Positions 5,665 through 39,218 of a stretch of 39,433 nt of DNA are shown here, piece by piece (the first letter of the stretch is position 1; the number at the start of each line of letters is the position of its first letter). The stretch spans positions 1-39,433 of the forward strand of contig NZ_JAQUOY010000024.1 in assembly GCF_028716865.1 (NCBI RefSeq), given 5' to 3'. Source of the stretch: Candidatus Methylomirabilis sp. (GTDB lineage: Bacteria; Methylomirabilota; Methylomirabilia; Methylomirabilales; Methylomirabilaceae). The notes under the pieces are model-generated. The model made no database searches, was not told the DNA's origin, and saw nothing but the letters and a program-made list of their open reading frames with translations. The translations under genes were made by a program, and so were the position numbers.

Positions 5665-5682
5665 GATTGGACGCAGCGATCA

Positions 5683-5766: not shown

Positions 5767-5786
5767 CGTAGGAAGAGGGGGGTTGC

Positions 5787-8803: not shown

Positions 8804-8923
8804 GATTAAGAGAAACGTTCAGCTTTTAGCGATCAAGAGATAGAGGAATATAGGGTGCTATTTACCTTCGGCCTTCAGCCTGGCGCTGATTACTGATAAC
8901 CATTTTCCAAGAAAGGAGGCACT
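8804..8923. repeat. Repeat-rich spacer between ank5 and ank6
   Basis: 8858-8890 is identical over 33 bases to 5718-5750 in the ank2-ank3 gap. It is flanked by ACGTTCAGCTTTTAGCGATC and by CTGATTACTGATAACC, the diverged arms of the same inverted repeat. Ends with the ribosome site GAAAGGAGG of paralogue 6. Confidence 0.6.
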
Positions 8924-9742: not shown

Positions 9743-9830
9743 GAAAAAAGCGCGGATTTTTCCTTGAACTCGATTTAAACTTTCTGATAGTGTGTCAGCC
9801 GCCTCTACTACTATCTCCCATTTGATGCCT

Positions 9831-9862
9831 TCTCCGGTTCTGGCGTCGTGAGACACCGGAGA
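9831..9862. other. Hairpin at the left edge of the GC-rich island
   Basis: Perfect 8-base arms TCTCCGGT (9831-9838) and ACCGGAGA (9855-9862). They lie in the 9743-9944 gap, which also has a weak promoter-like pair (TTGAAC 9764-9769, GATAGT 9786-9791). No T-run follows. Role unknown. Confidence 0.35.
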
Positions 9863-9944
9863 GGGCCGAGCCTGGTGCGACGCACGCAGTCATGCCGCGC
9901 ACCGCGCTCAAAGGGTTCCCAGAAAGACCGGGCAGGAGGAGGCC

Positions 9945-10106
9945 GTGGTTGCACCTGGGCTGGATGCGTTCCGGGTGGCCCGCTTCAAAGTCGCGCTTGA
10001 AGCGAAGGACTGGCTCCGCCTTCTCGAGTACAAGGGTTCCGCCCTCTTCTTCTCGCACACCGGCCCGCACGGTGATGGCGCGCCCCGGCCGCGCCGTGGC
10101 GCTTGA
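9945..10106 (+). pseudogene. cas6-like N-terminal fragment
   Basis: A 53-codon frame opens at GTG 9945 after a strong AGGAGGAGG site (about 9934-9942) and closes at TGA 10104-10106, two bases before ATG 10108 of the next gene. The residues DAFRVARFKVALEAKDWLRL followed by LEYKGSALF resemble the N-terminus of the CRISPR RNA endonuclease Cas6 of the YKGS-x-LRG type. The next stretch, FFSHTGPHGDGAPRPRRGA, does not fit, so the gene breaks off there. No repeats or other cas genes are in the window. The small size makes the identification tentative, but the strong start signals show this was the front of a real gene. It may now serve as a translated leader for the oxidoreductase. Confidence 0.45.
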
Positions 10107-10107
10107 C

Positions 10108-12105: not shown

Positions 12106-12598
12106 GTCGAGAGACAACAGTCCGGACGAGGGGCGGATCTCGCGCCGAGTCCTGCTGGGGACAGGCTGGTGCGGGTTCCTGCTGTCCATCGTGGGCCCTG
12201 CCCTGGCCAACATCCGCTTCCTCTTCCCCAACGTGGTGTACGAAGGCCCCACACTGCTCAAGGTGGGACGCCCGGAGGACTACGCGTCGGGAACGATCAC
12301 GTTCCTGGATGAGCAACGGCTCTTCATCATGCGAGACGCCGAGGGGCTCCGAGCGCTGTCGGCCATCTGCACGCACTTGCGGTGCACCACCGGGCCCTTC
12401 GTGCCGCCGACCGCCGAGTGGAGGGAGGCCCACTCGCGCTGCCCGTGCCACGGCAGCGTCTTCGCCAAGGACGGCCGGGTCCTCCAGGGACCGGCCCCAC
12501 GGCCCCTCGATTTCTATCGGGTTAGCCTCGCCCCGGACGGCCGCCTCGTGGTCGACACGGCCGCCGTCGTGGACAAGGGGGATGTCCTGAAGGTGTAG
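12080..12598 (+). CDS. Rieske [2Fe-2S] protein of the GC-rich bc cluster
   Basis: 172 aa. The cluster-binding boxes are CTHLRC (residues 97-102) and CPCHGS (121-126), with the two Cys and two His ligands intact. An N-terminal [10 protein letters not shown] at 21-30 followed by a hydrophobic stretch is a twin-arginine-type uncleaved anchor, so the head lies on the periplasmic side. It takes one electron from quinol and passes it to a c-type haem. ATG 12080 lies inside the end of the oxidoreductase gene and has GGAGG about 10 bases upstream, so the two are translationally coupled. A longer in-frame start at 12002 would add a low-complexity leader and is unlikely. Confidence 0.92.
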
Positions 12599-12702
12599 GC
12601 AAGAGGCCGAAGGCAAGCGCGAGGCCATCATCGCTTCGGTGTATCGCCGTCGGGAGACGGCTCCTACCCGGACCACCCGGAACTCAGGTGTTCTTGGGAG
12701 CC

Positions 12703-14184
12703 ATGATGACAGACGGATGGACGAGCGGGATTATCGGTCGCGTGACTGCGAGCCGGCTGTGGAAGTCGGTCTTTCGGCACGGCTATCCGGCCACGGATCT
12801 GGACCGGATGGCCACCATGTTCACCAACTTCTTCCTCCACCTCCTCCCGGCCAAGGTCCATCCGAACAGCCTACGCCTCACCTACACCTGGGCTCTGGGG
12901 ATGGTCACCTTCTACCTCATGGTCATCCTGTTCGTGACCGGCTTTCTCCTGATGTTCTTTTACATCCCGGTCACGGACCTGGCCTACCACAACATGAAGG
13001 ACCTCCAGTTCGCCGTCTCCTTCGGCCTCCTCCTTCGCAACATGCACCGCTGGGCGGCCCACGGGATGGTGGCGCTGGTATTCCTCCACATGAGCCGCGT
13101 CTTCTACACAGCCTCGTACCGCCCGCCTCGAGAGTTCAACTGGATCCTGGGTGTCCTCCTCTGGCTGGTGACGCTGTTCCTCAGCTTCACGGGGTACCTC
13201 CTCCCGTGGGACCAGCTCGCCTTCTGGGCCATCACCGTGGGTACGAGCATCGCCGGCTACCCCCCCTGGATCGGAGAGACCATCCGGACCCTGATGCTCG
13301 GCGGCCATCAGGTCGGCCAGGGCGCCCTGCTGCGCTTCTATGTGCTCCACGTCGCGATCCTTCCCGCGGTGCTCTGCCTCCTGGTGGCGATCCACTTCTG
13401 GCGGGTGCGGAAGGACGGCGGCCTTTCTCGGCCGGAGGGCCCGGCGCCGAAGCGCACCGCCATCCTGGGCGCCGAGGGGCGGTTCGTCCCTGGGCCTCAG
13501 AAGACCTATACCTTGATGGAGGTCGTGCGCGGAACCTCGCCGATGGTGGGGGCACAGAGGCCGGAGGACGAGGTCCCCGCCTGGCCCCACCTCCTCTTCC
13601 GGTTGGTCGTTCTCTTCCAGGTCGTGCTGGGCGTTGTCGTCCTCCTGGCCATCTTTTTTGACGCTCCCCTGGAAGAACTGGCCAACCCCACGCACCCGCC
13701 GAACCCGGCCAAGGCGCCTTGGTACTTCCTGGGCCTGCAGGAGCTGGTAAGCTACTCGGCCCTGGTGGGGGGCGTGGTGATCCCCGGCCTCCTGGTCCTG
13801 GGTCTGATGGGCATCCCGTACATCGACCGTGCGCGGGAGGGGGAGGGGATATGGTTCACGTCGGCCAGGGGGAAGCGGATCGCGGCATGGTCTTTCGTGG
13901 GAACGATCCCGTACACCATGGGCCTCCTGTTCCTGAACGCTCGCTTCGGCGTGCGGCGATTCTCCCCCGAAGCCCCGCAGGGGGTCGTGGACCTGCTCAA
14001 CCCGGCCACGCTGCTCCTGGCTGCCATCGTCGCCTTCTCGGTCATCGTCGGCTGGCGTACCGGCTCGCGCCGGATGGCGGCCATCGCCCTCTTCTCGGCC
14101 TTTGTCTCGGCCTACGTGCTCCTAATGATCATCGGGACGTGCTTTCGCGGTCCAAACTGGGACTGGGCGCTGCCATGGCGTTGA
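12703..14184 (+). CDS. Cytochrome b (b6/subunit IV fused) of the GC-rich bc cluster
   Basis: About 493 aa, multi-spanning. Haem ligands are H115 and H129 (13 residues between) and H216 and H231 (14 between). The 14-residue second spacing is that of cytochrome b6 rather than mitochondrial b. The quinol-site PEWY motif is altered to APWY (338-341). The C-terminal third adds helices beyond a plain subunit IV (to WDWALPWR). GGGAG at 12696-12700 fits ATG 12703 or 12706, while an in-frame GTG at 12688 has no ribosome site. A large overlapping frame at 12639-13661 is only a GC-driven shadow. It follows the Rieske gene and should form the quinol-oxidising core. Confidence 0.92.
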
Positions 14185-14222
14185 GAGCACCTGGTGTGGA
14201 CTAGCGGGAAGAGAGGCAGGGG

Positions 14223-15014
14223 ATGAGCCGGCGCTGGGTGTGGGCCTTCGCTGTGTTGGGCGTCTTCAACGGGCTCCTCTTTTTAGTTGCCCTCTGGCGC
14301 GACTATGACCGGGATTGGAAGCGCTACCAGACGGCCTTCTTCGCCCTCGAGGGCCGCAAGGCGCGGACGGCCCGGGAGGAAGAGGCCGTGAAGGCCCGCC
14401 GGCACGAGTTCATCCAGGTCGCCGTGGCGGGGACCGCGAGGGTGGACCGGTGCATGATGTGCCACCTCGGCATCGAGGATCAGCGGTTTGCCGACGCGCC
14501 GCAGCCGTTCCGGACCCACCCGGAGATCCCGAGACATCCCTTCGAACGCTTCGGGTGTACCGTCTGCCACGGGGGGCAGGACATGGCCACCACGAAGGCC
14601 GATGCCCACGGGCGCGTCCCGTTTTGGGGGGAGCCGCTGCTGGAGGAGGAGTACCGCCAGGCTGCCTGCGGTGGCTGCCACCTCGGCGCCGACGTACCGG
14701 GCGCGCCGCTGCTGGCGCAGGGGCGGCAACTCTACCCCCAGCAGCCCTGCGTCGGGTGCCACCGGATCCGTGGCGTGGGCGGGGTGGTCGGGCCAGACCT
14801 CACGTTCGTGGGGAGCCGCAAGCACGACCCCGAATGGTACCTGCGACACTTCAAGGATCCGCAGGCCACGGTGCCTGGCTCGACCATGCCCTCCTTCAAA
14901 CACCTGCCGGAGGCGGAGTTGAAGGCGTTGACGGTCTACATGCTGAGCCTGCGCGAGATGCCGTCGGCCCTCCTTCCGGCGCCCAGGACAGCGGCAGCCT
15001 CTGAGACGCGATGA
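14223..15014 (+). CDS. Membrane-anchored tetraheme cytochrome c of the bc cluster
   Basis: 263 aa with one N-terminal helix (residues 7-25), then a periplasmic domain with four CxxCH haem sites: CMMCH (77), CTVCH (112), CGGCH (149) and CVGCH (176). The last site sits in a class-I-like fold (CVGCHRIRGVGGVVGPDLT) with a likely axial methionine in STMPSF (M222). The first two haems lie in an extra N-terminal part. It probably stands in for cytochrome c1 and accepts electrons from the Rieske head. ATG 14223 follows GAGAGGCAGGGG, 38 bases after cytochrome b. Base composition is as GC-rich as its partners. Confidence 0.92.
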   Translation: MSRRWVWAFAVLGVFNGLLFLVALWRDYDRDWKRYQTAFFALEGRKARTAREEEAVKARRHEFIQVAVAGTARVDRCMMCHLGIEDQRFADAPQPFRTHPEIPRHPFERFGCTVCHGGQDMATTKADAHGRVPFWGEPLLEEEYRQAACGGCHLGADVPGAPLLAQGRQLYPQQPCVGCHRIRGVGGVVGPDLTFVGSRKHDPEWYLRHFKDPQATVPGSTMPSFKHLPEAELKALTVYMLSLREMPSALLPAPRTAAASETR

Positions 15015-15236
15015 TGGCTTCTATTCCGCTCACCGCTTGAATACGGGCGCCTCAGCGCTCATCTTGTGCGCAGACACGCTGGATTGGAGCGACGGTTGCT
15101 CGCATCGGCGCATCGTCACGCATCGTCGGCGCGTCCCGTGCGCTCGGTCGAATCGCTGGTTATGTGACCGATCCAACTACGCCCAAATCCTAACCGACTC
15201 AATCAACTACTGCTACATGATTTCCCACAACTGAAC
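15015..15236. other. Non-coding right edge of the GC-rich island
   Basis: The high GC content carries on past the cytochrome stop and drops near 15170. Short GCATCG-type words repeat around 15100-15135. I see no convincing gene: the frame at 15037-15234 lacks a ribosome site and resembles nothing. Confidence 0.4.
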
Positions 15237-15265
15237 TTTACGCATGGCATCTTTTCTGCCATAAT
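15237..15265 (+). promoter_or_regulatory. Promoter and operator of the MazEF-type pair
   Basis: TTTACG (15237-15242), 17 bases, CATAAT (15260-15265). The inverted repeat ATGGCA (15244-15249) / TGCCAT (15257-15262) overlaps the spacer and -10 box, which is where an autoregulating toxin-antitoxin repressor would bind. AGGAGG follows at 15273-15278. Confidence 0.55.
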
Positions 15266-15285
15266 TCCTGTCAGGAGGATAGACC

Positions 15286-15573
15286 ATGTCCAAGACGGAT
15301 ATGAAGAACCTGCACGTACCCTTGCCACAACCGCTGTATCAGCGCCTCCGCGCAGAAGCCAAACGCGAGAACCGACCGGCCACAGTCTTGGTCCGTGAGG
15401 CGATCGATCTCTGGCTTACCGAGCAGTACCGGGCCTCCGTACACGACGAGATTGCCTCCTACGCGCGAACAGTCGCGGGGACCTCTGACGATCTCGATCC
15501 GGACTTGGAAGCGGCAAGCGTTGAGCGCTTGGTGGATACCGTGGAGAACTCCGAGCGAGTTACGGACCAGTGA
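15286..15573 (+). CDS. Antitoxin of MazEF-type pair (ribbon-helix-helix-like)
   Basis: 95 aa. The N-terminal half (KNLHVPLPQPLYQRLRAEAKRENRPATVLVREAIDLWL) has the strand-helix-helix pattern of CopG/RHH DNA-binding proteins. The acidic C-terminal half (TSDDLDPDLEAASVERLVD) would wrap the toxin. It should repress its own promoter. AGGAGG lies eight bases before ATG 15286, and the stop overlaps the toxin start by four bases (GTGA), the usual layout for antitoxin-first operons. Confidence 0.85.
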   Translation: MSKTDMKNLHVPLPQPLYQRLRAEAKRENRPATVLVREAIDLWLTEQYRASVHDEIASYARTVAGTSDDLDPDLEAASVERLVDTVENSERVTDQ

Positions 15574-15917
15574 AGCGAGGCGAGGTGTATTGGGCCAGCC
15601 TTTCCCCACGGTCCGGATCCGAACAACAAGGCGCTCGGCCGGTCATCGTCGTGTCGCACGATGCGTTCAACCAGACCCCAGGGTGGCGATCCGTCATTGT
15701 GGTCCCCGTTTCCACAGCCGGCTCCCAGGCGCGACGTGGACCGACCGCCGTATCGCTCCCGGCAGGAACAGGCGGCCTGAAGAAAGATAGCGTCGCGCTT
15801 TGCCACCAAGTAACGACGCTTGATCGAAGCAAGTTGACCTCGCTTGCCGGGGTACTTCCACCCGAACTCCTCGCCCAAGTCGGCGACGGTTTAAGAATCG
15901 CACAGGATCTGCCGTAG
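15570..15917 (+). CDS. MazF/PemK-family mRNA interferase toxin
   Basis: 115 aa starting at GTG 15570. Family features: the opening strand KRGEVYWASL, RPVIVVSHDAFN with the conserved R23, VIVVPVSTA with T49, and the later strand SVALCHQVTTLDRSKL. MazF-type toxins cut RNA at short sequences and halt growth when the antitoxin is degraded. The length is normal and catalytic residues are present, so it looks intact. It sits between a respiratory island and an integron cassette, a typical place for a stabilising addiction pair. Confidence 0.9.
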   Translation: MKRGEVYWASLSPRSGSEQQGARPVIVVSHDAFNQTPGWRSVIVVPVSTAGSQARRGPTAVSLPAGTGGLKKDSVALCHQVTTLDRSKLTSLAGVLPPELLAQVGDGLRIAQDLP

Positions 15918-15939
15918 CCAACCACAAGACGATCTCCGG

Positions 15940-16062
15940 TCATACAACGATTTGGGCGAGCCGCCCGAGGCAGCGCACCCCGCGGCCATCCGCTTCGATC
16001 CGGCGCCAGAGTCGTCCCCCGACATAGCCAGTGACGCCCGTGACGAGAACGAGACCGCTCAT
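15940..16062 (-). pseudogene. Truncated NAD-dependent epimerase/NmrA-like fragment
   Basis: About 40 residues beginning MSGLVLVTGVTGYVGGRLW, the start of an extended short-chain dehydrogenase with its TGxxGxxG nucleotide-binding loop. The frame loses similarity after VRCLGR and stops at 15940, where a full gene would continue for 250 or more residues. It lies on the same strand as, and directly downstream of, the attC of the integron cassette, so cassette insertion or loss may have broken it. Confidence 0.6.
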
Positions 16063-16153
16063 GCCGATCCCGTGGACCTCGGAATGCAGTCCTCGGTATC
16101 TGCATGCAGGTGACCGCCCGTTGATGCTCAAGGAGGAATCTCACAGCCCATCG

Positions 16154-16249
16154 GCCCAACGTTTGAGGTAACCAGCCGCCGGAGCGCGAAGCGCGGAGGG
16201 AACCCGCAAGCGCAGCTTGCGGGCGGTCCAGTCGACCGAGAGGTTATGC
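16154..16249 (-). other. attC: Integron attC recombination site
   Basis: Read on the minus strand, the site starts with GCATAAC (R'' box, matching RYYYAAC) and ends with GTTGGGC (R' box, matching GTTRRRY), 96 bases in all. Inside is a perfect 9-base hairpin, CCCGCAAGC/GCTTGCGGG, and a second GCGC-rich hairpin. GGT/ACC and CCGCC/GGCGG words near the ends can pair as the L boxes. The last bases before R' (TTACCTCAAAC) are typical of attC sites. The TAA inside R'' is the stop of the DUF4365 gene, as is common in cassettes. Confidence 0.8.
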
Positions 16250-17275
16250 ATCATCGCTATCCGGCGGGTTGAAGCCGAGACATCTAAAGCAGGCATAGGT
16301 GATGCGCTTGTTTTCTTCGATTGACATTCCAAGCCATTCGGCCATCGCATTCAGCCCAGGAAACTGGCGCATAAAAAATGTTCCCACCATTTCGGTCTCG
16401 AATATGACCCGTCGAGTCACCGTACGTGTTGACCGTTCGCCTTCCCAGGAGACGGTTGTCAAGCACAAAGCAAAAAGTCGAAGAGTGGCCGTGGGCTGCT
16501 CTGTTCGGACGAAGAACAGCAATTCGGGCAAGGCTGCTTCAAGAGCCGCCATATACCGACGAACTTCGGGAATCTCGAAGAGTTCTCGGGGGTCATTGTC
16601 GTAGCCGGAGATGCTGAACTCAATTTTCCCTTGGCACTCGTAAGCCAGTTCCTTGGTAGAGCGCAGACGATCAAAGAAAGCTCGGGGCCGCGATGTATCC
16701 ATTGAGAGAACGTCTTTGTCATCGAAAACAAATAGGACGTGGCCGGACTCCACGATCATCTTGTTGAGCGCCCAATACGCCCGTAACTCCGCTAGCGTGT
16801 CGGCCGGCGGTGGCAGGAGAGCCAATAGTGCCGCCTTAGACTGGGACAACCTATTCTCGAATGGAACTGTGATCTTCCAACCAGCTTCAGTTGTTTGTGT
16901 CTGCTCGGGTTGAAACCGAACCCAAAAACATTCACCAGACTCTGGGTCACAGACAATGATCAGGACGGGAATTGGGTAGTTCGAGAGGTAATTGAAGTGC
17001 TTCAACTCGCCACGGTAGACATAGCCCCACTTATTCTTCTCTTGTAGGAATGACCTTCCGCACTTGATTTGCATCGCGAGTAGCTGACCAGTTACCGCAC
17101 CTGAGTCAGTCACTACTTCAAGTTGGCCATCTATGCCAAAGTCGTGTTCCTGATGGTTCCGTTTGAAGAGCCACCCAAACGAATCAGAAGCGATCCGAGC
17201 AACAAGGGCAACTCCAAGTTCGCCTTGCTTGGCTGAACTAGAAAGCGTGGGGAAGCCGATGATCATGATGCATAA
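16160..17275 (-). mobile_element. Integron gene cassette carrying a DUF4365 gene
   Basis: The minus-strand GTTATGC at 17276-17270, ten bases before the start codon, is the exact complement of the GCATAAC that opens the attC at the other end. This is the junction signature of a cassette inserted at a G-TTRRRY point: when the cassette is circular, its attC ends become complementary. One gene plus one attC, about 1.1 kb, is standard. No integrase gene or second attC is visible in the window, so it may be a single cassette at a secondary site or the remains of an array. Confidence 0.75.
16244..17266 (-). CDS. DUF4365 (PD-(D/E)XK nuclease-like) cassette protein
   Basis: 340 aa. The N-terminal domain has EHDFGIDGQLEV (residues 40-51) and LLAMQIKCG (62-70). 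D46 and the QxK motif at Q66-K68 match the nuclease-type core of DUF4365, with Q in place of the usual Glu before x-Lys. The family is found in anti-phage and cassette contexts. The actual target is not known. The C-terminal half (about residues 150-340) is not recognised; it contains EHLLFFVRTEQ-like strands and two late Cys. The gene has lower GC than the island upstream, which fits separate acquisition. It starts at ATG 17266, ten bases inside the cassette, with no strong ribosome site. Confidence 0.8.
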   Translation of the reverse strand: MIIGFPTLSSSAKQGELGVALVARIASDSFGWLFKRNHQEHDFGIDGQLEVVTDSGAVTGQLLAMQIKCGRSFLQEKNKWGYVYRGELKHFNYLSNYPIPVLIIVCDPESGECFWVRFQPEQTQTTEAGWKITVPFENRLSQSKAALLALLPPPADTLAELRAYWALNKMIVESGHVLFVFDDKDVLSMDTSRPRAFFDRLRSTKELAYECQGKIEFSISGYDNDPRELFEIPEVRRYMAALEAALPELLFFVRTEQPTATLRLFALCLTTVSWEGERSTRTVTRRVIFETEMVGTFFMRQFPGLNAMAEWLGMSIEENKRITYACFRCLGFNPPDSDDA

Positions 17276-17276
17276 C

Positions 17277-17540
17277 TATTGAGTAGATTGGTCAGCCTAT
17301 CTCGACTGATGAGTTGTGAGGTTAAGACAAATCCTACAAGTTTTTCCCAGACTTAACAAGAAATTATCAGCTTTCTGGAGCATGGCCAACACTGCACGTC
17401 TGGTCAGCCTATTCCGGCAGACTCCAATGGTCTCTGCCGATCAAAGCCGAGTCGATGAGGACTCGTGAGGCGTCAGCGTTCAGAGCAAGGGCGATACATT
17501 CGTTGAGGAGCGGGCCTGTTACTGCATGCTTTACGCAGAA
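17277..17540. other. Spacer between the cassette and the LysR gene
   Basis: No convincing gene. The 11-base word GGTCAGCCTAT occurs near 17291 and again near 17401. An AT-rich stretch at 17320-17380 could hold the promoter of the cassette gene. After the LysR stop, its frame stays open on the minus strand for about 42 codons without a start codon, and that peptide is not recognised. No attI or second attC is evident. Confidence 0.35.
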
Positions 17541-18455
17541 TCAGGAATGATGAGATTCGTGAGGACGGGTGGGGGCGCCGAGGAAGGCGAGAAAGGCGTT
17601 GCAGATGGGCGAGCGGGAACGGTGGCGATGGGTGATGAGGTAGAACGGCCTGGTCAGTTTCAGGCCTGCGATGGGAATGGCGGTGAGTTCGCCGCACTTG
17701 ATATCGCTGGCGACGGCGAGCTTCGAGATGATGGCGATACCGCTGCCGGCCTTGACCGCTTGTCGGATCGCCTCGTTGCTGCCCATCTCTGCGATCACCC
17801 TGAAGGTGTCCATCGACAGATGGTGCTGCGCCAGGGCGTGTTCCATCATCTTGCGCGTTCCAGAGCCGCGCTCCCGAATGAGAAACGGCTGACTCGGCAG
17901 CTCCTTGATCTTGACGATTCTCCGGGACGCCCAGGGGTGCGTGGGCGGCACGACCAACACCATCTCGTCTTCGGCACATTGCTGGTACTCGAGCCTGCCA
18001 TCATCGAATTGTGCGCCCACGACGCCAACCTCATACGCGCCGGTCGTCACTGCCTCGATGATCTCTTTTGAGTCCGAGACCTTGAGAACGATCGAGATGT
18101 CCGGGTACTGGGCCCTGAACCGTCCGATCAGGGACGGCAGCAGATAGCCGCCGGGGATGCTGCTGGCGCCGAGTATCAGTTCTCCCTTTAGCCCTCCCCT
18201 GAGCTCGTCGAGCGCCTGTTGCGCTTCCTGGCGGAGCGCCAGAATCCGTTTGGCATAGCGATACAGCAGATCGCCGGCCTTGGTCGGGGTGGCTCGGTGC
18301 CCGAGGCGATCGAGGAGCCGGATTCCTGCCTCCTGCTCCAGTTTCTTGATGTGGCCACTGACCGTGGGCTGGGTCAGGTAGACTGCGTTGGCTGCCTTCG
18401 AGAAGCTTCCCGATTCAACGATTCTGGCGAACAGTTCGAGGGCGTGGATATCCAT
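17541..18455 (-). CDS. LysR-family transcriptional regulator
   Basis: 304 aa from ATG 18455. The helix-turn-helix lies at residues 3-62 (LELFARIVESGSFSKAANAVYLTQPTVSGHIKKLE), then a linker helix and a two-lobed effector domain (LILGASSIPGGYLLPSLIGRF onward). The longer frame to 18659 overlaps the glycosyltransferase out of frame and is rejected. The N-terminal half resembles the LysR subgroup linked with selenium metabolism, but that is from memory of the family and needs a search. The gene begins 10 bases after the glycosyltransferase stop on the same strand, so it is probably the last gene of that operon. Confidence 0.9.
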   Translation of the reverse strand: MDIHALELFARIVESGSFSKAANAVYLTQPTVSGHIKKLEQEAGIRLLDRLGHRATPTKAGDLLYRYAKRILALRQEAQQALDELRGGLKGELILGASSIPGGYLLPSLIGRFRAQYPDISIVLKVSDSKEIIEAVTTGAYEVGVVGAQFDDGRLEYQQCAEDEMVLVVPPTHPWASRRIVKIKELPSQPFLIRERGSGTRKMMEHALAQHHLSMDTFRVIAEMGSNEAIRQAVKAGSGIAIISKLAVASDIKCGELTAIPIAGLKLTRPFYLITHRHRSRSPICNAFLAFLGAPTRPHESHHS

Positions 18456-29302: not shown

Positions 29303-29914
29303 GTGAATCCCGAATCCCCTTACTTTACGCAGAAGCGCCGGTACCGATTGACGGTGGCGCGTGTTGGGGTGATCGTTTCCCTTATTGCAGCAGCAGTGGC
29401 GCTCGCGAACGTGCTGGCGGTCAGGGATCATCTGTGTTATGAGCACCACATGAATATGTTTTGCTCGATCGCCCAAATCGGCGAATCCGAGGTGAGAGTA
29501 TTCGCATGGCATCCGGAGGTGAAGCCATTTGACCGGAGCGCCTCGACCCCTCGCAGCGCACTGTCCGAGATTCTACCTGAGGAAAAACGGGCATACGGCA
29601 GCCGCTTTCCGAGCGGACAACGACAGTGGCTGTACTGGGAAGCGCGATTGAAGTCTCGTGAACCTCCGGGTCGCTCAATCAGGTTCATCGTCCATTGGAC
29701 GACGTATGCTGCAGGTGATCATGCTGTCGCGGGCGGTGTCGTTGAGGCCACGTGGGGTGCTGATGACCCGGCAGTCCTTATTATTGGCCCTGTCGACACC
29801 GTTCCAGTGCAAACCTCCAGTCAATTCCCGCCTGGCCGCTATGAGATCGTTCTGAATGTGTACGGCAATCAACTGGCTGAGTCGAAGGTTCGCGGCGGAT
29901 TCAAGATTTACTGA
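29303..29914 (+). CDS. Hypothetical membrane-anchored protein
   Basis: 203 aa from GTG 29303, with AAAGGA about eight bases upstream. Residues 19-41 (VARVGVIVSLIAAAVALANVL) form one membrane helix after a basic start, so the rest is probably periplasmic. Two Cys (CYEHHMNMFC) sit just past the helix and could pair or bind something. The C-terminal half has strand-rich wording (FIVHWTTYAAGDHAVAGGVVEATWG ... FPPGRYEIVLNVYGNQLAESKVRGGFKIY), like a beta-sandwich ligand-binding fold. I do not recognise the family. It lies just before the multiheme cluster but has no promoter or spacing that links it. Confidence 0.6.
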   Translation: MNPESPYFTQKRRYRLTVARVGVIVSLIAAAVALANVLAVRDHLCYEHHMNMFCSIAQIGESEVRVFAWHPEVKPFDRSASTPRSALSEILPEEKRAYGSRFPSGQRQWLYWEARLKSREPPGRSIRFIVHWTTYAAGDHAVAGGVVEATWGADDPAVLIIGPVDTVPVQTSSQFPPGRYEIVLNVYGNQLAESKVRGGFKIY

Positions 29915-30105: not shown

Positions 30106-31089
30106 ATGAAGAAACGTAACGCTGTAGTCGTCCTGTTACCCTTATTGCTGATTACTCTCCTCGTTGGGTGGGCGTGCAGTCGCTTTACCTCTCCGCCCTC
30201 TAAAACTGGAGCCCCATCCGCCACGACCACCGATGCCCCTCAGCCCAAGTGGGTCGGTCCACCCCCAGGCGCCAAGTACGTGGGAAGTGAGTCATGTGTG
30301 AAGTGTCATGAGGAGTCGACCCAGCGTTTCCACAAGACGAAGATCGGGCGGGTCATGTCGGTGAATCCGCGAGCGACGCAGGGGCAGGGAGACTGCGAGT
30401 CATGCCATGGTCCAGGTGGCCCGCACGTTGCCACAGAAGGCGGTGCCCTGGAGACAGTGATCAGCTTTGAGAAGGGAGCGGAGCCTGTCGAAGTGCAGAA
30501 TGCCGTCTGCGTGAAGTGCCACGAAAAGGGTGAGCATACCTTCTGGAAGGGAAGCACCCACGAAGTACGGGGGGTGGCTTGCGTGTCCTGTCACAAGGTG
30601 ATGGAGTCGGTGTCCGACCGATACAATCTGGCAAAGCCGACCGCGATCGAGGTCTGCTCGCAGTGCCACCAGACCCGCCGGGCCCAGCTCCAGCGGAGCT
30701 CTCACATGCCGCTGCGCGAGGGAAAGATCAGTTGCGGCGACTGCCATAACCCGCATGGGACCGCCACGCAGGCGATGCTCCGGGAAGATTCGGTCAATGA
30801 CAACTGCTTCAAGTGCCATGCCGAGAAGCGCGGACCATTTCTTTGGGAACATGCACCCGTGACGGAAAGCTGTTCGAACTGCCACGAGCCGCACGGCTCC
30901 ACCAACGAGAGGCTCCTGAAGGTCAGGGTTCCCCGCCTCTGTCAGCAGTGCCACGTCGAGACCCGGCACCCAACCAGCCCTTACGATCCGAGGACCGGGT
31001 CACGGTTTGTCATTAATAGGGGCTGCATCAATTGCCACCAGAAGATCCATGGGTCAAACCATCCCTCAGGATTCGCCTTCACGAACTGA
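30106..31089 (+). CDS. Decaheme cytochrome c, MtrA/DmsE-like
   Basis: 327 aa. Ten CxxCH sites at C64, C97, C135, C159, C184, C210, C234, C256, C279 and C307, the number and spacing of the DmsE/MtrA/PioA family. The N-terminus (KKRNAVVVLLPLLLITLLVGWAC) is a signal with a Cys at 24 that could be lipidated, though the GWAC box is not ideal. In the known Mtr and Pio systems this protein sits inside or below the outer-membrane barrel and carries electrons across the envelope. The next gene is that barrel. GAAGGGTG precedes ATG 30106. Confidence 0.92.
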   Translation: MKKRNAVVVLLPLLLITLLVGWACSRFTSPPSKTGAPSATTTDAPQPKWVGPPPGAKYVGSESCVKCHEESTQRFHKTKIGRVMSVNPRATQGQGDCESCHGPGGPHVATEGGALETVISFEKGAEPVEVQNAVCVKCHEKGEHTFWKGSTHEVRGVACVSCHKVMESVSDRYNLAKPTAIEVCSQCHQTRRAQLQRSSHMPLREGKISCGDCHNPHGTATQAMLREDSVNDNCFKCHAEKRGPFLWEHAPVTESCSNCHEPHGSTNERLLKVRVPRLCQQCHVETRHPTSPYDPRTGSRFVINRGCINCHQKIHGSNHPSGFAFTN

Positions 31090-31122
31090 GGTGGCGATCT
31101 GCATCAAACGGAGGAGGTGGCC

Positions 31123-33456
31123 ATGGGAGCGTTAGTCTGGATGAGGCGGATCAGCACAGCACTGCTACTCGCCATCGCCTTGTTGCTGGCAGCCGTGGCG
31201 CCGGGCCAGGCTCAACAACCACAGTCGGAGGAGGCTTTCCCATGGTGGGTCAACTGGCTCAACGATCGGTTGCCGTTCGGCCTCAACGTCACCTCGGTAG
31301 ATATTGAGGGAGGCTATCGGACGATTGGCGACAATCGGAGCTCGGCCAAGTTCCAGGAGTATCGGGTGCTTGAGGAAAGCCCTTTTCTGGACCATGCTCG
31401 AATCTCTCTTGAAACCAAGGACCAGAAGCAATACATCGAGTTCTCCTCAATAGACTCCTTCAAGCAAGATCAGAGCTACTTGTTCCGATTCGGGAAGTAC
31501 GGTGGCTATGAGCTGGAGATCTTCTGGGATCAGGTCCCTCATCTGTTGAGCACGACGGGACGGACTCTGTTCACGACAACGCGCGAAGACGGCAACCCCA
31601 ACCTGACCTTGCCGTCCGGTGTCGCATCGACGGTGCAGGCTGCCACACCCGCGACCAGGGCCTCCGTGCTGGCAGGCTTTCTGGCCAATGCCACGCCGAC
31701 GGATCTTAGCTTCCTGACCTCCAAAGCGGGATTCGGGTTTAAATACAACCTGACAGATTCTCTGGATTTCGGTGTCCGCTACACCTTTACGCAGAAGGAC
31801 GGGACGATCCCTTTTGGCGCGGGCTTCAGCAGCCCAGGGGGGAACGTAGTCGAGATTCCGGCCCCCCTCTTTAACCGGACTCACCAGGTTGAGGTCAAGA
31901 CGCAGTATGCTCAACCAGGCTGGAATGTCGGCCTCGGCTACACCGCCTCGATCTTCGATCAGAGCGTCGACAATATTACGTTCGACAACCCACTCTCGGC
32001 CACGAACAGCCCGACCCTTTCGGCTCGCGGACTGACCACCATGGACCCGAGCAACCAGGCGCATAACGTGTTTCTCTCTGGTGGTCTCTCCCTGCCGCTT
32101 CAGACCAGGGTCACGGGGAAGGTCTCCTATGGGTGGCGGCTTCAGGATGAATCGTTTGTCTCCCATACCATCAACCCGGCCTTGGCCGCGAACCCTGGGT
32201 TGGTTCTCCCCAGGAGCAGCTTTGACGGAGATATCAGGACGACCCTTGTGGCTCTCAACGCGACGAGCCGCCCGCTTACCGCTTTGCCGCTGACGCTGTA
32301 TGGCGGCTACCGTTTCTACGATTTCAATAACCGATCGCCCGAGATCGTGTTCCCGGCTCATACCGTTCGGGATACGTCGCTCACACCCGATGCGGAGGTC
32401 AACGCGCCTTTCTCCTACACCAAGCACAATGCCCACCTGGACGCGGGTTATCCTATTCTCAGCGATCTTCATTTCAAGATGGGCTACGAGTGGGAACGTT
32501 GGGATCGTAATTCCAAACTCCGCGAGGTGCCGACCAGTGATGAGCACTCCCTAAAAACCAGCCTGGACTTCACGCCGATCGATTGGCTGCTCTTCCGCGC
32601 CGCGTATCGTCGGGGCTGGCGGCGTATCGATAACTACGTGCCACAAGCTCACGATAAGCACGTGACCGTTGACATCGAGGGGGAGCCATGGGCGCCGGAT
32701 CCTCTGGGCCAGTCGGTCCTGCTTCGGAAGTTCGACGAGGCTGACCGGAACAGGGACCGGGTGGAGATCCTGACGTCGATCAGCCCGATCGAGAACCTCA
32801 GCTTTACGGCTACCTATAGTCTCCTGCAGGACCATTTCAATAACTCCGACCTTGGCTTGCAGAAATCGAGAGGGTGGAGTGCAGGCGGTGATCTGGCCTA
32901 TAGCCCGTTCAAGTGGCTGTCGTTCTTCGTCAACTACACGCGAGAAGAGTTCCGCTATGATCAGCTCTCTCGCTCCAGGCCGGTCACCGGCACTACGGCT
33001 TTTGACTTCACGGACTTCAACTGGAGGAGTGTCAACACTGATACGATTGACACCTACGGGGTCGGTACGGACGTCAGCCTGATTCCCAATCGTCTCAATT
33101 TTCGGCTGACCTACACCTTCTCGGATGCCGATACCATCATGAGATCGTTCAACCCGGTTAAGCCGACCAGTGGCACTGGAGCTCAGCGAGCGACCGCGAC
33201 CGCCGTGGACTATCCGTTGGCGAACACGAACCTCCATACCCTGATTGCCGCGCTTCGCTATAACCTGACCAGGAACTGGAGTCTCAAGGGCGAATATCGA
33301 TTTGAGCAGTTTCGCGAGACCGATTGGGCGACCGATGCGATCGGGCAATCCGGTCTGACAAATCTGCCCCCGACGACCGATACCTTTTTGGGCGCTCGGT
33401 TCCTGCAGAATTATGACGCCCATATTGCAGCGTTTACACTTCGCTACCAGTTTTAA
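31123..33456 (+). CDS. MtrB/PioB-family outer-membrane beta-barrel
   Basis: 777 aa. Signal peptide ending near GQAQ, then a long chain of amphipathic strands with typical MtrB-like wording (GYRTIGDNRSSAKFQEYR at about residues 64-81) and a terminal TLRYQF ending in Phe, the outer-membrane insertion signal. The barrel sheathes the decaheme cytochrome. The N-terminal CxxC of gamma-proteobacterial MtrB is absent; the N-terminal region has no Cys. GAGGAGG at 31111-31117 supports ATG 31123 over the GTG at 31117. It follows the decaheme gene by 33 bases, the expected pairing. Confidence 0.9.
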   Translation: MGALVWMRRISTALLLAIALLLAAVAPGQAQQPQSEEAFPWWVNWLNDRLPFGLNVTSVDIEGGYRTIGDNRSSAKFQEYRVLEESPFLDHARISLETKDQKQYIEFSSIDSFKQDQSYLFRFGKYGGYELEIFWDQVPHLLSTTGRTLFTTTREDGNPNLTLPSGVASTVQAATPATRASVLAGFLANATPTDLSFLTSKAGFGFKYNLTDSLDFGVRYTFTQKDGTIPFGAGFSSPGGNVVEIPAPLFNRTHQVEVKTQYAQPGWNVGLGYTASIFDQSVDNITFDNPLSATNSPTLSARGLTTMDPSNQAHNVFLSGGLSLPLQTRVTGKVSYGWRLQDESFVSHTINPALAANPGLVLPRSSFDGDIRTTLVALNATSRPLTALPLTLYGGYRFYDFNNRSPEIVFPAHTVRDTSLTPDAEVNAPFSYTKHNAHLDAGYPILSDLHFKMGYEWERWDRNSKLREVPTSDEHSLKTSLDFTPIDWLLFRAAYRRGWRRIDNYVPQAHDKHVTVDIEGEPWAPDPLGQSVLLRKFDEADRNRDRVEILTSISPIENLSFTATYSLLQDHFNNSDLGLQKSRGWSAGGDLAYSPFKWLSFFVNYTREEFRYDQLSRSRPVTGTTAFDFTDFNWRSVNTDTIDTYGVGTDVSLIPNRLNFRLTYTFSDADTIMRSFNPVKPTSGTGAQRATATAVDYPLANTNLHTLIAALRYNLTRNWSLKGEYRFEQFRETDWATDAIGQSGLTNLPPTTDTFLGARFLQNYDAHIAAFTLRYQF

Positions 33457-33583: not shown

Positions 33584-34039
33584 ATGGTTGTGGCACAGCA
33601 GGATGAACAGGTCGACTATGGGCGGCGCACAGTGAATTGGCTTCTGGGAAGTTCCCTCGGCGTGCTCTTCATATCCATCCTGTACCCGATTGTAAAATAC
33701 TTGATCCCCCCCAAGCTGGCCGAGCCGACCACGTTCAGCGTGACCCTTCCCTGGAAGCTCGCGGAACTGAAGGCGAACTCAGGGCGGATCTTTCGCTTCA
33801 GGAGTCGTCCGGGTATCTTGGTGAAGACCTCAGCAGGCGAGTTGCGGGCGTTTTCTGCGGTCTGTACCCACCTGGAATGCACGGTGCAATACCGGGAAGC
33901 GCGGCAGGATATCTGGTGCGCCTGTCACAATGGTGTGTACGACCTAAATGGGAAGAATATCAGCGGTCCGCCGCCACGGCCCCTGGAGCCTCTCAAGTTG
34001 AACGTCCGGGGAGATCAGATCATCGTCATGAAAGGATAA
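33584..34039 (+). CDS. Rieske [2Fe-2S] protein of the multiheme cluster
   Basis: 151 aa. Cluster boxes CTHLEC (residues 94-99) and CACHNG (112-117) keep the Cys/His ligands, with unusual Glu and Asn next to them. The N-terminal [10 protein letters not shown] is a Tat-type anchor leading into a membrane helix. The head is short, lacking the insert of mitochondrial Rieske proteins. ATG 33584 follows GAAGGAGGG. GTG 33590 is possible. Five bases separate its stop from cytochrome b, so the two form a unit. It shares little with the Rieske protein at 12080 beyond the boxes. Confidence 0.92.
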
Positions 34040-34044
34040 GTAAG

Positions 34045-35133
34045 GTGACGGGAGTTCGGATTGCGGCCTGGCTCGAAGAGCGAATCGATCTCTGGCCGCT
34101 CAGGCATCTCATTCAGAAGAAGGTCATCCCTGTTCATCGCCATACCGTCTGGTACTACTTCGGCGGGATGACGCTCTTTCTCTTCGGGATTCAGGTGGCT
34201 ACCGGGATCCTGCTGACCCTCTACTACCGGCCCAGCGGCGAAGAGGCGTACGAGAGTGTTCAATTTATCATGACCGAAGTCCAATTCGGTTGGCTTGTTC
34301 GCTCGATCCATAGCTGGTCGGCCAACCTGATGGTGCTGACAATGATGATCCACCTGTTCAGTGTGTACCTGACCCAGGCCTACCGAAAGCCGCGGGAGCT
34401 GACATGGGTGACCGGAATGTTGCTGTTCGGCATCGTTCTGTTCTTCGGCTTCAGCGGGTATCTGCTGCCCTGGAATGTTCTCGCGTATTTCGCCACTAAA
34501 GTCGGAACTGAGATCGCCGGGCAGTTCCCACTTGTGGGTCCTGTTCTGATGCGGCTCCTGCGGGGTAGCGACGAGGTCACGGGCGCGACGGTTTCCCGCT
34601 TTTACGGTATGCACATTGCCATCCTGCCGGCGCTCATCACCATGATCCTCGGCCTCCATCTGTTCCTGGTGCAGAAGCAGGGGATGAGCGTTCCCCCGGC
34701 CGTGGAGCGATCTCATGCGGGACGGCCGCTTCCGACCATGCCGTTTTTCCCTAATTTTCTGCTGCGAGACCTCTTTGGCTGGTTTGTCACCCTCGGGGTC
34801 TTAGCGGCATTAGCCGCGCTGTCCCCATGGGAGCTGGGACAAAAGGCCGATCCCTTCGCTCCGGCGCCTGCCGGCATTCGACCGGAATGGTACTTCGTCT
34901 TCATGTTTCAGAGCCTGAAGTATATCCCGGCGAAGATCGGTCCCTTTGAGGGTGAGGTCTTGGGAGTCCTGGGTTTCAGTCTGGGCGGGCTGTTACTTTT
35001 ATTGGTCCCATTTCTGGACAAGAAGTCGGCATTGGGAGAGCCTAGTCCGCTCTTCCGATCGATCGGAATCGGCATTATTGCGTACATTGTGATATTTACC
35101 GTGCTTGGATATGTCGCGCCCGGCGCCAAATGA
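34045..35133 (+). CDS. Cytochrome b (b6/subunit IV fused) of the multiheme cluster
   Basis: 362 aa. Haem ligands H89/H103 (13 between) and H190/H205 (14 between), b6-type spacing. The quinol motif PEWY is intact at 280-283. The protein is a compact eight-helix b6-plus-subunit-IV fusion. GTG 34045 follows AAAGGA by eight bases. The frame upstream to 33637 is the out-of-frame shadow of the Rieske gene. No c1-type gene follows. Instead comes a nonaheme cytochrome, which likely takes its place. Confidence 0.93.
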
Positions 35134-35140
35134 GGACGCC

Positions 35141-36409
35141 GTGAGGATGGCGCTGCGCGTTGTATGCTTCGGCCTCCTCCTGATCGCGGCCGGCCTGATT
35201 CGTGCCCCCTTCGCGGCGGCGGCGGATGCTTGCATCGACTGCCATATTGGATTAAGAGAGGAGCGCCTCAACCGTCCGGCTGTCAAGATTAAAGACGATT
35301 ACCACCTGGCGAGGGGACTGGGCTGCCAGGGCTGTCACGGCGGTGATCAGACGGCGTTCGACAATAAAGCGCAGAGCCACAGTCCGGCCAAGGGATTTCT
35401 GGGCAAACCGAAGCGGCAGGCGATCCCTGAAACCTGCGGGAAGTGCCACAGCGATCCGGTCTATATGCGACAGTTCAATCCATCCATTCGGACAGACCAG
35501 GTGAAGGAATACTATACCAGTGTCCATGGCAAAAAGTTTCGCGAGGGAGATCAGAAGGTCGCCGTCTGTATCAGTTGCCATGACGTGCATGCGATCCGTG
35601 CCGTCAAAGACCAGATGGCTTGGACGCATCCTGTCAAGGTCGCTGAGACTTGTGGCCGATGCCACGGTAACGCTGAGTATATGAAAGCGTATAAAATCCC
35701 CACCGATCAGTTGGACAAGTACAAGCAGAGCTTCCATTACGAGATGTTGACCAAGAGGGGGGACCTCGCCTCCCCGACATGCAGTAGTTGCCACGGCAGT
35801 CACGGCGCCGCCCCTCCTGGTATCGATTCAGTGGCGAATATCTGTAGCCACTGTCATGTAGCGACGGCCGAGCTCTTCGCGAAGAGCCCGCACAAGCCGG
35901 CATTTGCCGAGCTGGGGATGCCGGCCTGCGTGACGTGCCATAGTAATCACGATGTCACGAAACCGTCAGATGCCATGCTGGCTGGTGGAGAAGGCACCCC
36001 GTGTGCCACATGCCACGAAGCGAACTCTCTACCCCTGAAGAAGGCCGCCGAATTACGAACCATGATTGAGAGTCTTTCAAGCCGGATCGATCAGGCGACG
36101 ACGACCCTTACCAGGGCCGAGCAGGCAGGAATGGAGATCGGCTCTCCTCGATTCGAGCTGCTTGCGGCAAAAGAGTCCTTGATTAAGGCTAGAGCCGCGA
36201 CGCATTCACTCGAGGTGGAACAGATCAAAACCGCTACCGACTCAGGGTTAGTCGTAGCCCAGAAGAGTCTTGAGAGCGGCCACGGTCTCCTGGCTGAGGT
36301 GCAGTTTCGCCGCAAGGGGCTGGCAGCCTCCATGCTGATCATTGTCGCGGTCCTGGTCGGCCTCTTCTTGAAGATCAGAGAAGTTGATCGGCGGAAAAGG
36401 TCCGGATGA
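35141..36409 (+). CDS. Nonaheme cytochrome c with coiled coil and C-terminal membrane anchor
   Basis: About 422 aa. Signal sequence to AAAADA, nine CxxCH sites (C31, C62, C99, C143, C171, C214, C235, C263, C288), then a haem-free helical coiled coil (about 302-392, LRTMIESLSSRIDQATTTLTRAEQAG) and a single membrane helix at 396-411 ending in a basic tail. Haems would sit in the periplasm next to the b/Rieske core. It probably replaces cytochrome c1 in passing electrons on. GTG 35141 lies eight bases past the cytochrome b stop. ATG 35111 (overlapping cytochrome b) or 35147 are alternatives. I do not know a named family with this exact layout. Confidence 0.88.
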   Translation: MRMALRVVCFGLLLIAAGLIRAPFAAAADACIDCHIGLREERLNRPAVKIKDDYHLARGLGCQGCHGGDQTAFDNKAQSHSPAKGFLGKPKRQAIPETCGKCHSDPVYMRQFNPSIRTDQVKEYYTSVHGKKFREGDQKVAVCISCHDVHAIRAVKDQMAWTHPVKVAETCGRCHGNAEYMKAYKIPTDQLDKYKQSFHYEMLTKRGDLASPTCSSCHGSHGAAPPGIDSVANICSHCHVATAELFAKSPHKPAFAELGMPACVTCHSNHDVTKPSDAMLAGGEGTPCATCHEANSLPLKKAAELRTMIESLSSRIDQATTTLTRAEQAGMEIGSPRFELLAAKESLIKARAATHSLEVEQIKTATDSGLVVAQKSLESGHGLLAEVQFRRKGLAASMLIIVAVLVGLFLKIREVDRRKRSG

Positions 36410-37040: not shown

Positions 37041-39218
37041 TTGATAACGCGGAGCGTAGGTTGTGGAAAGGTGGCCGGAGGCCTTCTCCTTGTCTGGATT
37101 TTTCTGACGATAGCTCCGAATGCCTTTGCGGCCCTCTCGGGGTCGGCTTCCACTTCTGAGGAGTGTCTGGCCTGTCACAACGATCCCAACTTAAAAAAGG
37201 AGACCGGCGAGGGACGATACGCCTCGCTGTTTGTAGCGCCGGCCGATCTTGTTCAATCTGCGCACAAAGGGCTTGCCTGTACCGAATGCCATAATGACAT
37301 CTCAGTAGTCCCTCACGCCGCAACGCCGCAGCCGGTCCGCTGCGGCGCATGCCATCGCAAACCCCATGAGACGGTTCCGAAGAGCGCTCATGCCAAACTG
37401 GGTAGCGACGGCCCCAGCGCCAATTGTATCGCCTGCCATGGCAGTCACCGAATCCAGAAGATAGCCGCGGATGGCAACGTCATCTGCGCGTCGTGTCATG
37501 GCCGTCAGGCAAAGCAAATGGCGGCCGGCATTCATGCCGGTAGCCGCGGGGAAAAAGCCCGGCACCTGCCTACCTGCGTCACCTGTCACACGGCCCATGC
37601 CGTCACATCCCACCGCGACCTCGCGTCACCTACCCATCGCTCACAGATTCACGATACCTGCGCCCGTTGCCATGCTGATCCGAAGGTCATCGCCCAAGAA
37701 GGGATCGTCAGACCGCGGGTCGTTGCGCTCTTTGCGCAAAGTATCCACGGCCAGGCCATCCTGCAGAAAGGCAATCTCGCTGCCGCAACCTGCACCGATT
37801 GCCATGGTACCCATGAGATCCGCCGAGCCGTCGATCCCGCCTCCGCTGTTTTTAAGCAGAACGTTGCCATCACCTGCAAGCGGTGCCACGCCGACGAGGC
37901 CGGTCAGTTTCAAGCCAGCGTTCATGGGAGGGCCGTCTCACGAGGGGTATTCGCGGCGCCGACATGTACGAATTGTCATGGGGAGCATGGGATCACCGCC
38001 ACCCGCGCCCAGGGATCGCGAGTGGCGCCACTGACGGTCTCCAAGACCTGTGCTGCCTGTCACGAAGCGGCGCAGGTGGTCGAGGAGTTTGGCCTCGCGC
38101 CGCGCCGCGCCGGGACATTCTTCGAGAGCTTCCACGGCCTGGCGGTCAGAGGCGGATCGCCAGTGGTGGCCAACTGTGCAAGCTGTCACGGGACCCACAA
38201 TATCCAGCCCTCGTCTGATCCTCGCTCGACCGTCAACCCGATGAATCTTTCGCGAACTTGCGGACAGTGCCACCGAGGCGCCGGCATGCAATTGGCCGGC
38301 TCCAGAATCCACGTAGCCCCCGGGTTCGGCGAGCACCCATGGGTGACCCTGGTCCGACGGATCTACCTTGTCATCATCTTTGTCGCCATCGGCGGGATGA
38401 GCCTGCACAACGGGCTTGACTTCCTGGCGCATCTGCGAGAGCGTTGGCGGGCAGAGGGCCGGAGGGAAGACGAACCCCGCGTACCTCCCGAGGTGGCACG
38501 CCGGCTCTTTGAGCGCTTCACACTCAATGAGCGGATTCAGCACTTCACGCTGTTTGTGACCTTCACGATCTTGGTCATTACCGGCTTTGCCCTGAAGTTT
38601 CCTGATGCGTGGTGGGCTCAGCCGCTGGTCTGGATGGAAAGCGGGTATGCCGTCCGAGCCTGGTCACATCGGATCGCCGGCGTGCTCATGACGCTGGCGG
38701 CAGGGTATCATCTGGCGTATCTGTTCGGAACGCAGCGCGGTCGGATTCAGTTCCGTCTGATGCAACCCTGCCGGCGGGATGTAGGCGAGGCGTGGGGAAT
38801 GGTCGCCTTTAACCTGGGTCTGCGATCGCACCGACCCCGTTTTCACCGCTTTACGTACGTGGAGAAGCTGGAGTATTGGGCGGTCATATGGGGCACTGCT
38901 GTGATGGCCGGCACCGGATTTATCATGTGGCTCCAGACTGTTGTGCTGAAGCGCTGGCCCCTTCTGGTTATTGACCTGGCGAACGTCGTCCATTATTACG
39001 AGGCTTGGCTTGCAATGCTTGCTGTCCTGGTCTGGCACTTCTACAGCGTCATCTTCCGGCCTGATATCTACCCGATGAGTCGAGTGTGGCTGACGGGGAC
39101 GATGACGGGAGAACAGATGGCCAAGGATCATCCTGCTGAGTTAGAGGAGACGCTCGCGGCAGAAACCGTAACAAGCTTAATGCCCGAAGATGAGATGACG
39201 GGACCGCGGGTAAGCTAA
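37041..39218 (+). CDS. 13-heme cytochrome c fused to a b-type membrane domain (CbcL-like)
   Basis: About 725 aa. A signal segment is followed by thirteen CxxCH sites (C42, C80, C101, C129, C149, C179, C207, C251, C279, C309, C337, C379, C407), then from about residue 435 a multi-helix b-type domain with histidines suited to two haems (H501, H543, H557, H651, H666). The plan matches CbcL of Geobacter, a quinol-oxidising fusion that feeds periplasmic cytochromes, but with more c haems than the nine in CbcL. The start is uncertain: TTG 37041 opens the frame, while GTG 37071 would still leave a signal. Neither has a strong ribosome site. Ends just before the IS element. Confidence 0.85.
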   Translation: MITRSVGCGKVAGGLLLVWIFLTIAPNAFAALSGSASTSEECLACHNDPNLKKETGEGRYASLFVAPADLVQSAHKGLACTECHNDISVVPHAATPQPVRCGACHRKPHETVPKSAHAKLGSDGPSANCIACHGSHRIQKIAADGNVICASCHGRQAKQMAAGIHAGSRGEKARHLPTCVTCHTAHAVTSHRDLASPTHRSQIHDTCARCHADPKVIAQEGIVRPRVVALFAQSIHGQAILQKGNLAAATCTDCHGTHEIRRAVDPASAVFKQNVAITCKRCHADEAGQFQASVHGRAVSRGVFAAPTCTNCHGEHGITATRAQGSRVAPLTVSKTCAACHEAAQVVEEFGLAPRRAGTFFESFHGLAVRGGSPVVANCASCHGTHNIQPSSDPRSTVNPMNLSRTCGQCHRGAGMQLAGSRIHVAPGFGEHPWVTLVRRIYLVIIFVAIGGMSLHNGLDFLAHLRERWRAEGRREDEPRVPPEVARRLFERFTLNERIQHFTLFVTFTILVITGFALKFPDAWWAQPLVWMESGYAVRAWSHRIAGVLMTLAAGYHLAYLFGTQRGRIQFRLMQPCRRDVGEAWGMVAFNLGLRSHRPRFHRFTYVEKLEYWAVIWGTAVMAGTGFIMWLQTVVLKRWPLLVIDLANVVHYYEAWLAMLAVLVWHFYSVIFRPDIYPMSRVWLTGTMTGEQMAKDHPAELEETLAAETVTSLMPEDEMTGPRVS

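Follow-up and report, generated by a model that had tools for sequence, protein, structure and literature searches.

Does the gene at 37041..39218 encode an enlarged relative of the Geobacter cytochrome CbcL, and what would such a protein do in a methanotroph? The first-pass annotation had described a CbcL-like fusion expanded to 13 c haems, beyond the nine of Geobacter CbcL. The window (the whole stretch of 39,433 nucleotides that we analysed) belongs to a 2.54 Mb genome of the phylum Methylomirabilota (NC10) that carries a gene for pMMO/AMO subunit A. The fusion gene and its parts are as follows.

37041..39218, + strand: 13-haem c / b-type fusion, CbcL-like, 725 aa, TTG start
37077..37136, + strand: hydrophobic N-terminal helix, residues 13-32, likely a signal peptide or anchor (model helix, hydropathy)
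37164..38312, + strand: c-haem part, periplasmic, residues 42-424, with 13 CxxCH and 13 more invariant His
38337..38471, + strand: membrane helix, residues 433-477, joining the c part to the b part (hydropathy, model)
38493..39191, + strand: FdnI-like b domain, residues 485-717, probably with two b haems (1kqf_C fold match, profile match)

The basic architecture was confirmed. Exactly 13 CxxCH motifs, all within residues 42-411, precede the b-type domain (starts at 42, 80, 101, 129, 149, 179, 207, 251, 279, 309, 337, 379 and 407), whereas 2,000 shuffles of the protein averaged 0.06 motifs and never gave more than 2; CxxxCH is absent. Beyond the motifs, Pfam Ni_hydr_CYTB matches residues 492-673 with 47.1 bits (cut-off 30.1). 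As for the TTG start, several same-genus relatives are homologous down to the first residues.

All 13 motifs are invariant in an alignment of 14 Methylomirabilota sequences, and 13 are kept in every relative from the phylum that is not cut by a contig end. The same 14 sequences share 13 further invariant His in the c part (75, 92, 117, 136, 165, 186, 236, 258, 295, 316, 365, 386 and 424). Because motifs and additional His are alike invariant in this set, the fusion likely carries 13 bis-His c haems. One distal His per haem is the simplest reading and, with a candidate for each, no open catalytic haem is indicated. In CbcL, all nine haems are bis-His (PMC9129911). A wider alignment, A2, combines the window protein with 68 of 76 complete fused relatives (L071, L081, L084, L087, L094, L105, L108 and L112, with long ORFs or extra haems, were set aside). 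There, 11 of the 13 motifs are retained in 68 or 69 of 69 sequences. His 117 is kept in 18 and His 186 in 40 of the 69, possibly due to misalignment; both are invariant in the phylum set.

Folded alone, the c part gave a pLDDT of 90.3 and a pTM of 0.84. Its best fold match was MtrA (6r2q_A; Z 9.2, 4.3 Å over 215 residues), followed by the hydroxylamine oxidoreductase (HAO) group at Z 7.7 to 8.7; with gaps in Z under 1 counted as ties, most ranks among MtrA and the HAO group are ties. Foldseek returned no match to the c part below E 0.001 (best E 7.9e-3). By sequence, the N-terminal part matches the PDB entry 28pb ("Cytochrome c") at E 1.6e-15, an entry absent from the fold-match rows shown. 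The fold matches of this predicted model fit an extended haem chain; the first-pass idea that the extra haems could reach a periplasmic partner directly would go beyond what these matches measure.

Geobacter CbcL does have nine c haems (PMC9129911), which raises the question of whether 13 is a special enlargement, as first proposed. We find that it is not. A 2018 survey of 138 CbcL/MtoC/MtrH homologues reports 3 to 23 CX2CH motifs (PMC6295460, in the passages available). We scanned named genomes with patterns from Methylomirabilota and took the best 80 of 357 confirmed matches, which gave 79 loci; three of these (L043, L090 and L103) are cut by contig ends, leaving 76 complete fused ORFs. Thirteen motifs were found in 50 of the 76, 11 in 18, and 12, 17, 18 and 19 in two each. 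One caveat is that, because only the best 80 of 357 matches are counted and the patterns derive from the phylum, the 50/76 figure leans toward close relatives. Nevertheless, the search for the same 13-haem plan, which the first-pass annotation had suggested as a check, found it widely. The 79 loci span Ignavibacteria, Bacteroidota, Acidobacteriota, Gemmatimonadota, Calditrichota, Verrucomicrobia, Omnitrophica and others. The 13-haem fusion plan is common in many bacterial phyla and ordinary for its family. The idea of a unique plan was rejected on the published range and on 13 being the commonest count. Among the titles of the 79 loci (best 80 of 357), no Geobacter or other Desulfuromonad appeared and no CbcL, MtoC or MtrH was recognised; plasmid records gave no match.

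The relatives with fewer haems suggest how the number varies. The 11-haem forms (18 of 69) lack a pair of adjacent motifs from the stretch of motifs 3 to 5: motifs 4 and 5 in alignment A2, and a gap over 3 and 4 in A3. Because the two are missing as a pair, 13 looks like an 11-haem core plus a two-haem module, or 11 like the loss of that module.

Some match to the protein is seen in 41 of the 99 genomes searched. It occurs in 12 of the 14 same-genus genomes, with none found in G006 and G011, and the loci L044 (79% identity) and L043 (83%) are from Candidatus Methylomirabilota bacteria. Besides the window, 16 fused loci from the phylum were read, 14 of them with 13 haems and two (L014, L018) cut by contig ends. 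Elsewhere in the class and order, 13 loci from other families encode the c part and the b part in separate genes. All 13 split c proteins have 13 haem motifs, and several have a hydrophobic stretch near the C-terminus, like the joint of the fusion. In a c-part tree built by a quick method (68 of the 109 rows, which comprise 96 fused forms, the window among them, and 13 split ones), the 13 split sequences lie on one side of a single long branch (SH-aLRT 100), nested with the fused forms of the phylum and one Eisenbacteria sequence (SH-aLRT 96). The evolutionary picture is one of a two-haem module present or absent on an 11-haem core, and of a 13-haem c part that keeps its haem number whether or not the b part is fused to it.

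Two observations on individual genomes belong here. One same-genus genome (G002, locus L015) holds a 55-56% identical version grouping with L016, L017 and L045 of another family in the order. This points to transfer, a second lineage or misbinning. In G009, the first bases (2-130) of the seven contigs C4, C12, C16, C17, C18, C20 and C33 all match one 43-residue segment of the protein (238-280), a pattern that resembles an assembly artefact.

We then consider the b-type domain. The whole-protein model (mean pLDDT 87.8, pTM 0.71) has long helices fitting the membrane at 433-477, 495-519, 537-563, 606-630 and 641-672, i.e. five in the C-terminal half plus the N-terminal hydrophobic helix, rather than six C-terminal ones. 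The survey reports six transmembrane helices in most family members and five or four in a few (PMC6295460). Residues 485-717 of the model superimpose on the γ subunit of E. coli formate dehydrogenase N, FdnI (1kqf_C), with Z 16.5 and 2.6 Å, 208 of 216 residues being aligned, and a profile of 69 relatives matches the same chain at E 5.9e-12. All 69 aligned sequences share His 501, 543, 557, 651 and 666, and 68 of them share His 456, enough for two bis-His b haems. The survey describes three conserved membrane His for b haems (PMC6295460). The domain probably binds two b haems, with these His as candidate axial ligands.

A fold and profile belonging to FdnI, with hydrogenase-1 cytochrome b as the next fold match (Z 11.5), bring up the possibility named at the outset as a refutation: that the domain anchors a formate dehydrogenase or hydrogenase in the membrane. 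The formate dehydrogenase γ model TIGR01583 does match weakly, at 49.2 bits, but this is far below its cut-off of 115.85. In all 76 complete ORFs (79 loci; best 80 of 357), the b domain is fused to 11 to 19 c haems. The eight cluster proteins scanned, starting at 29303, include no formate dehydrogenase or hydrogenase subunit; this search covers the upstream side, as the contig ends 215 bases past the fusion stop codon. Finally, a genome-wide search found no Ni_hydr_CYTB match other than the fusion's own b domain. On sequence evidence, these data refute the anchor reading, which we regard as extremely improbable.

The last bases of the contig (window 39400-39433, + strand) read MKKHRYSNEFK, which we take to resemble the way IS3-type transposases begin. 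The contig may therefore break at a mobile element.

What, then, does the neighbourhood say about function? The fusion is the last gene of a cluster on the + strand, preceded by the following.

29303..29914, + strand: conserved 203-aa protein with no family assigned, at the cluster head
30106..31089, + strand: DmsE/MtoA-type decahaem cytochrome (TIGR03508, ten CxxCH)
31117..33456, + strand: MtrB/PioB-family outer-membrane porin (TIGR03509, PF11854)
33584..34039, + strand: Rieske iron-sulphur protein (Pfam)
34045..35133, + strand: cytochrome b of a bc-type complex, GTG start inferred
35105..36409, + strand: nonahaem c cytochrome with a C-terminal hydrophobic helix
36567..36950, + strand: triheme c7 cytochrome, periplasmic (ORF opens at 36384, likely ATG at 36567)

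The decahaem protein scores 269.9 bits against TIGR03508 (cut-off 192.2), and the porin 324.3 bits against TIGR03509 (cut-off 240.05) and E 1.6e-114 against PF11854; it is the only MtrB/PioB porin found in the genome. The GTG start of the cytochrome b was chosen because of the protein's length in relatives. The nonahaem cytochrome and the 13-haem part are distantly paralogous, with 31% identity (E 1.1e-19). A c7 shuttle gene next to the fusion had also been predicted, and one does lie just upstream (Cytochrome_C7, E 3.4e-15; nanowire_3heme, 63 bits against a cut-off of 40). Its likely ATG at 36567 agrees with the 127-aa product in a relative, G005.

This arrangement is conserved. The order decahaem, porin, Rieske, nonahaem, c7, fusion is kept in all five further same-genus neighbourhoods read out (G005, G008, G009, G013 and, as locus L044, G001). 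The cytochrome b slot holds an ORF without haem motifs in G005, G008, G009 and G013; Pfam confirms cytochrome b itself in the window, G005 and L047. Following the fusion in G005 and G013 is a 16-haem protein, whose G005 copy starts NapC/NirT-like; a search of the present genome, run without a positive control and thus weak evidence of absence, did not find this gene. Farther afield, in the fetched flanks of the 79 loci (best 80 of 357), Rieske relatives occur at 20, phylum members included, and relatives of the window's porin at two.

Several variants of the cluster were also seen. At L047, the fusion is followed by 19-haem, NapC/NirT-type 6-haem, Rieske, cytochrome b and 11-haem proteins, so that one cluster (7956-18040) contains three quinone-facing modules: the 13-haem fusion, the NapC/NirT-type 6-haem protein and Rieske/cytochrome b. 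L049 and L063 are similar to this cluster in their ORF sizes and haem counts. In G008 (L037, 3-3353), a second decahaem/porin pair, 50% and 31% identical to the window pair, lies just upstream of the conserved one. Elsewhere in the window (9892-15014, + strand), a second bc-type cluster encodes a flavin/4Fe-4S oxidoreductase, Rieske and cytochrome b proteins, and a c protein that has four CxxCH motifs and ends in a FixO/cytochrome c region. Six ankyrin-repeat ORFs stand in a row at 3857-9742 (+ strand; 303, 237, 303, 310, 319 and 272 aa); they are alike by eye, and the one scanned is clearly ankyrin.

The first-pass view is supported in that the protein is a CbcL-type fusion of c haems and b domain, lies beside a c7 gene and belongs to an electron-conduit cluster. 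We think it probable that the protein works in the inner membrane as a CbcL/MtoC/MtrH-type gate for electrons between menaquinone and the periplasm, serving an outer-membrane conduit that it either feeds or is fed by. The observations behind this proposal are the sequence anatomy, the conservation, the gene cluster and the predicted b fold; quinone chemistry, the numbers of bound haems, partners and route are inferred from them. Menaquinone is likely in this organism because its genome has two genes of the MqnA/MqnD family. The FdnI-like domain would exchange electrons with membrane menaquinone, and the two putative b haems would carry them to the periplasmic face. From there, the chain of 13 bis-His c haems could pass them to the c7 shuttle encoded next door, which may in turn exchange with the decahaem protein held in the MtrB/PioB-type porin and so with the cell exterior. 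The Rieske/cytochrome b/nonahaem complex would constitute a second quinone gate, probably working in another potential range. There is precedent for parts of this scheme: CbcL reduces the c7 protein PpcA in vitro (PMC9129911), and mtoC and mtrH genes stand beside mtoAB/mtrAB in other bacteria (PMC6295460). Several observations count against the gate: the model has five C-terminal membrane helices, no MtrC-like surface cytochrome was found among the haem-motif ORFs of the window, and the search of this genome for the 16-haem gene of some relatives, run without a positive control, came up empty.

A different destination for the electrons is suggested by the genes that travel with the fusion. Throughout the genus, the Rieske, nonahaem and c7 genes remain linked to the fusion, the nonahaem cytochrome is paralogous to the c part, and Rieske relatives flank 20 of the 79 loci versus two for porin relatives (best 80 of 357). 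The fusion might then form a periplasmic supercomplex with Rieske, cytochrome b and nonahaem proteins and deliver electrons to periplasmic nitrogen-oxide enzymes rather than outside. Yet the same cluster holds the sole MtrB/PioB porin found in the genome together with a DmsE-type decahaem, proteins known for crossing the outer membrane, and we judge the supercomplex improbable.

For the gate itself, the direction of flow has to be considered. Rieske/cytochrome b complexes usually oxidise quinol, and one is encoded in the same cluster; menaquinone, which the MqnA/MqnD genes make the likely pool, has a low potential for Fe(II) to reduce it directly at neutral pH. Both points argue against inward flow, in which electrons from Fe(II), a partner cell or a mineral would enter through the MtoAB/PioAB-like conduit and c7, and the fusion would reduce menaquinone. 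On the other hand, this type of conduit (MtoAB, PioAB) is used by Fe(II) oxidisers, in which MtoC, a CbcL homologue, adjoins mtoABD (PMC6295460), and PioA and PioB homologues are reported from Rokubacteria (PMC10654088). Because the survey saw no apparent feature separating quinol-oxidising from quinone-reducing members (PMC6295460, in the passages available), sequence is compatible with either direction. We slightly favour outward flow, i.e. quinol oxidation; inward flow appears unlikely, if less so than the supercomplex.

What makes the locus notable is its setting. Methylomirabilis is a genus of methanotrophs known for oxygen production from nitrite, and its members have every part expected of an extracellular electron route. 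We tentatively suggest, as something short of an even bet, that Methylomirabilis-type methanotrophs own a complete, genus-wide, envelope-spanning route with two quinone gates, c7 and an MtoAB/PioAB-type conduit, through which minerals, humics or partner cells could take up or supply respiratory electrons under nitrite shortage. Methylomirabilis is known to live by nitrite plus methane, which makes a need for such exchange putative and counts against the gate. If the route is used, these bacteria would consume methane under a wider range of conditions. The locus is of moderate importance, and it owes this to the complete cluster in a genus of methanotrophs rather than to its haem number.

No description of this cluster in Methylomirabilis was found in the literature searched, which mostly lay outside subscription papers. 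It is undescribed in the passages available of PMC8805035, PMC7374466, PMC8163242, PMC5506047, PMC8258643, PMC9039326, PMC6137239, PMC11475568, PMC11008690, PMC11302344 and PMC10367259. A further published study is said to concern iodate reduction by a Methylomirabilota methanotroph. The nearest report lists mtrA as one of the iron genes in some Methylomirabilota genomes (PMC10386581). Together with the PioA and PioB homologues of Rokubacteria (PMC10654088), this means that extracellular electron transfer in the phylum has already been hinted at in print.

How does the fusion compare to known systems? MtrA (6r2q_A) and the HAO group are the best fold matches of the c part alone; as a difference, the c part of the fusion has no sign of an open catalytic haem. 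The b domain shares the fold of FdnI (1kqf_C), whereas here it is fused to c haems, has no catalytic partner genes in view and scores below the TIGR01583 cut-off. The split c and b proteins of other Methylomirabilota families have the same 13 haem motifs, encoded with the b part in two genes instead of one. Likeness to CbcL, MtoC and MtrH is judged on domain plan and published descriptions, as opposed to sequence scores against those proteins. Like CbcL of Geobacter sulfurreducens (GSU0274), the fusion joins a multihaem c N-terminus to a HydC/FdnI-type b domain, di-haem in CbcL and probably so here, and has a periplasmic triheme c7 as its putative partner (PMC9129911, PMC6295460). It differs in having 13 motifs and, in the model, five C-terminal helices, versus nine c haems and six predicted membrane helices, and in being clustered with a porin, a decahaem cytochrome and a Rieske/cytochrome b complex. 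With 13 motifs it falls outside a narrow definition of Geobacter CbcL by nine c haems; it shares with the surveyed CbcL/MtoC/MtrH family a motif number within 3 to 23, a HydC/FdnI-like b domain and conserved membrane His. With MtoC and MtrH of Dechloromonas, Gallionella and Rhodoferax, compared by description, it shares the motif range of 3 to 23 and the place beside mtoAB/mtrAB (PMC6295460), and it differs from them in phylum and in the added Rieske, cytochrome b and nonahaem genes.
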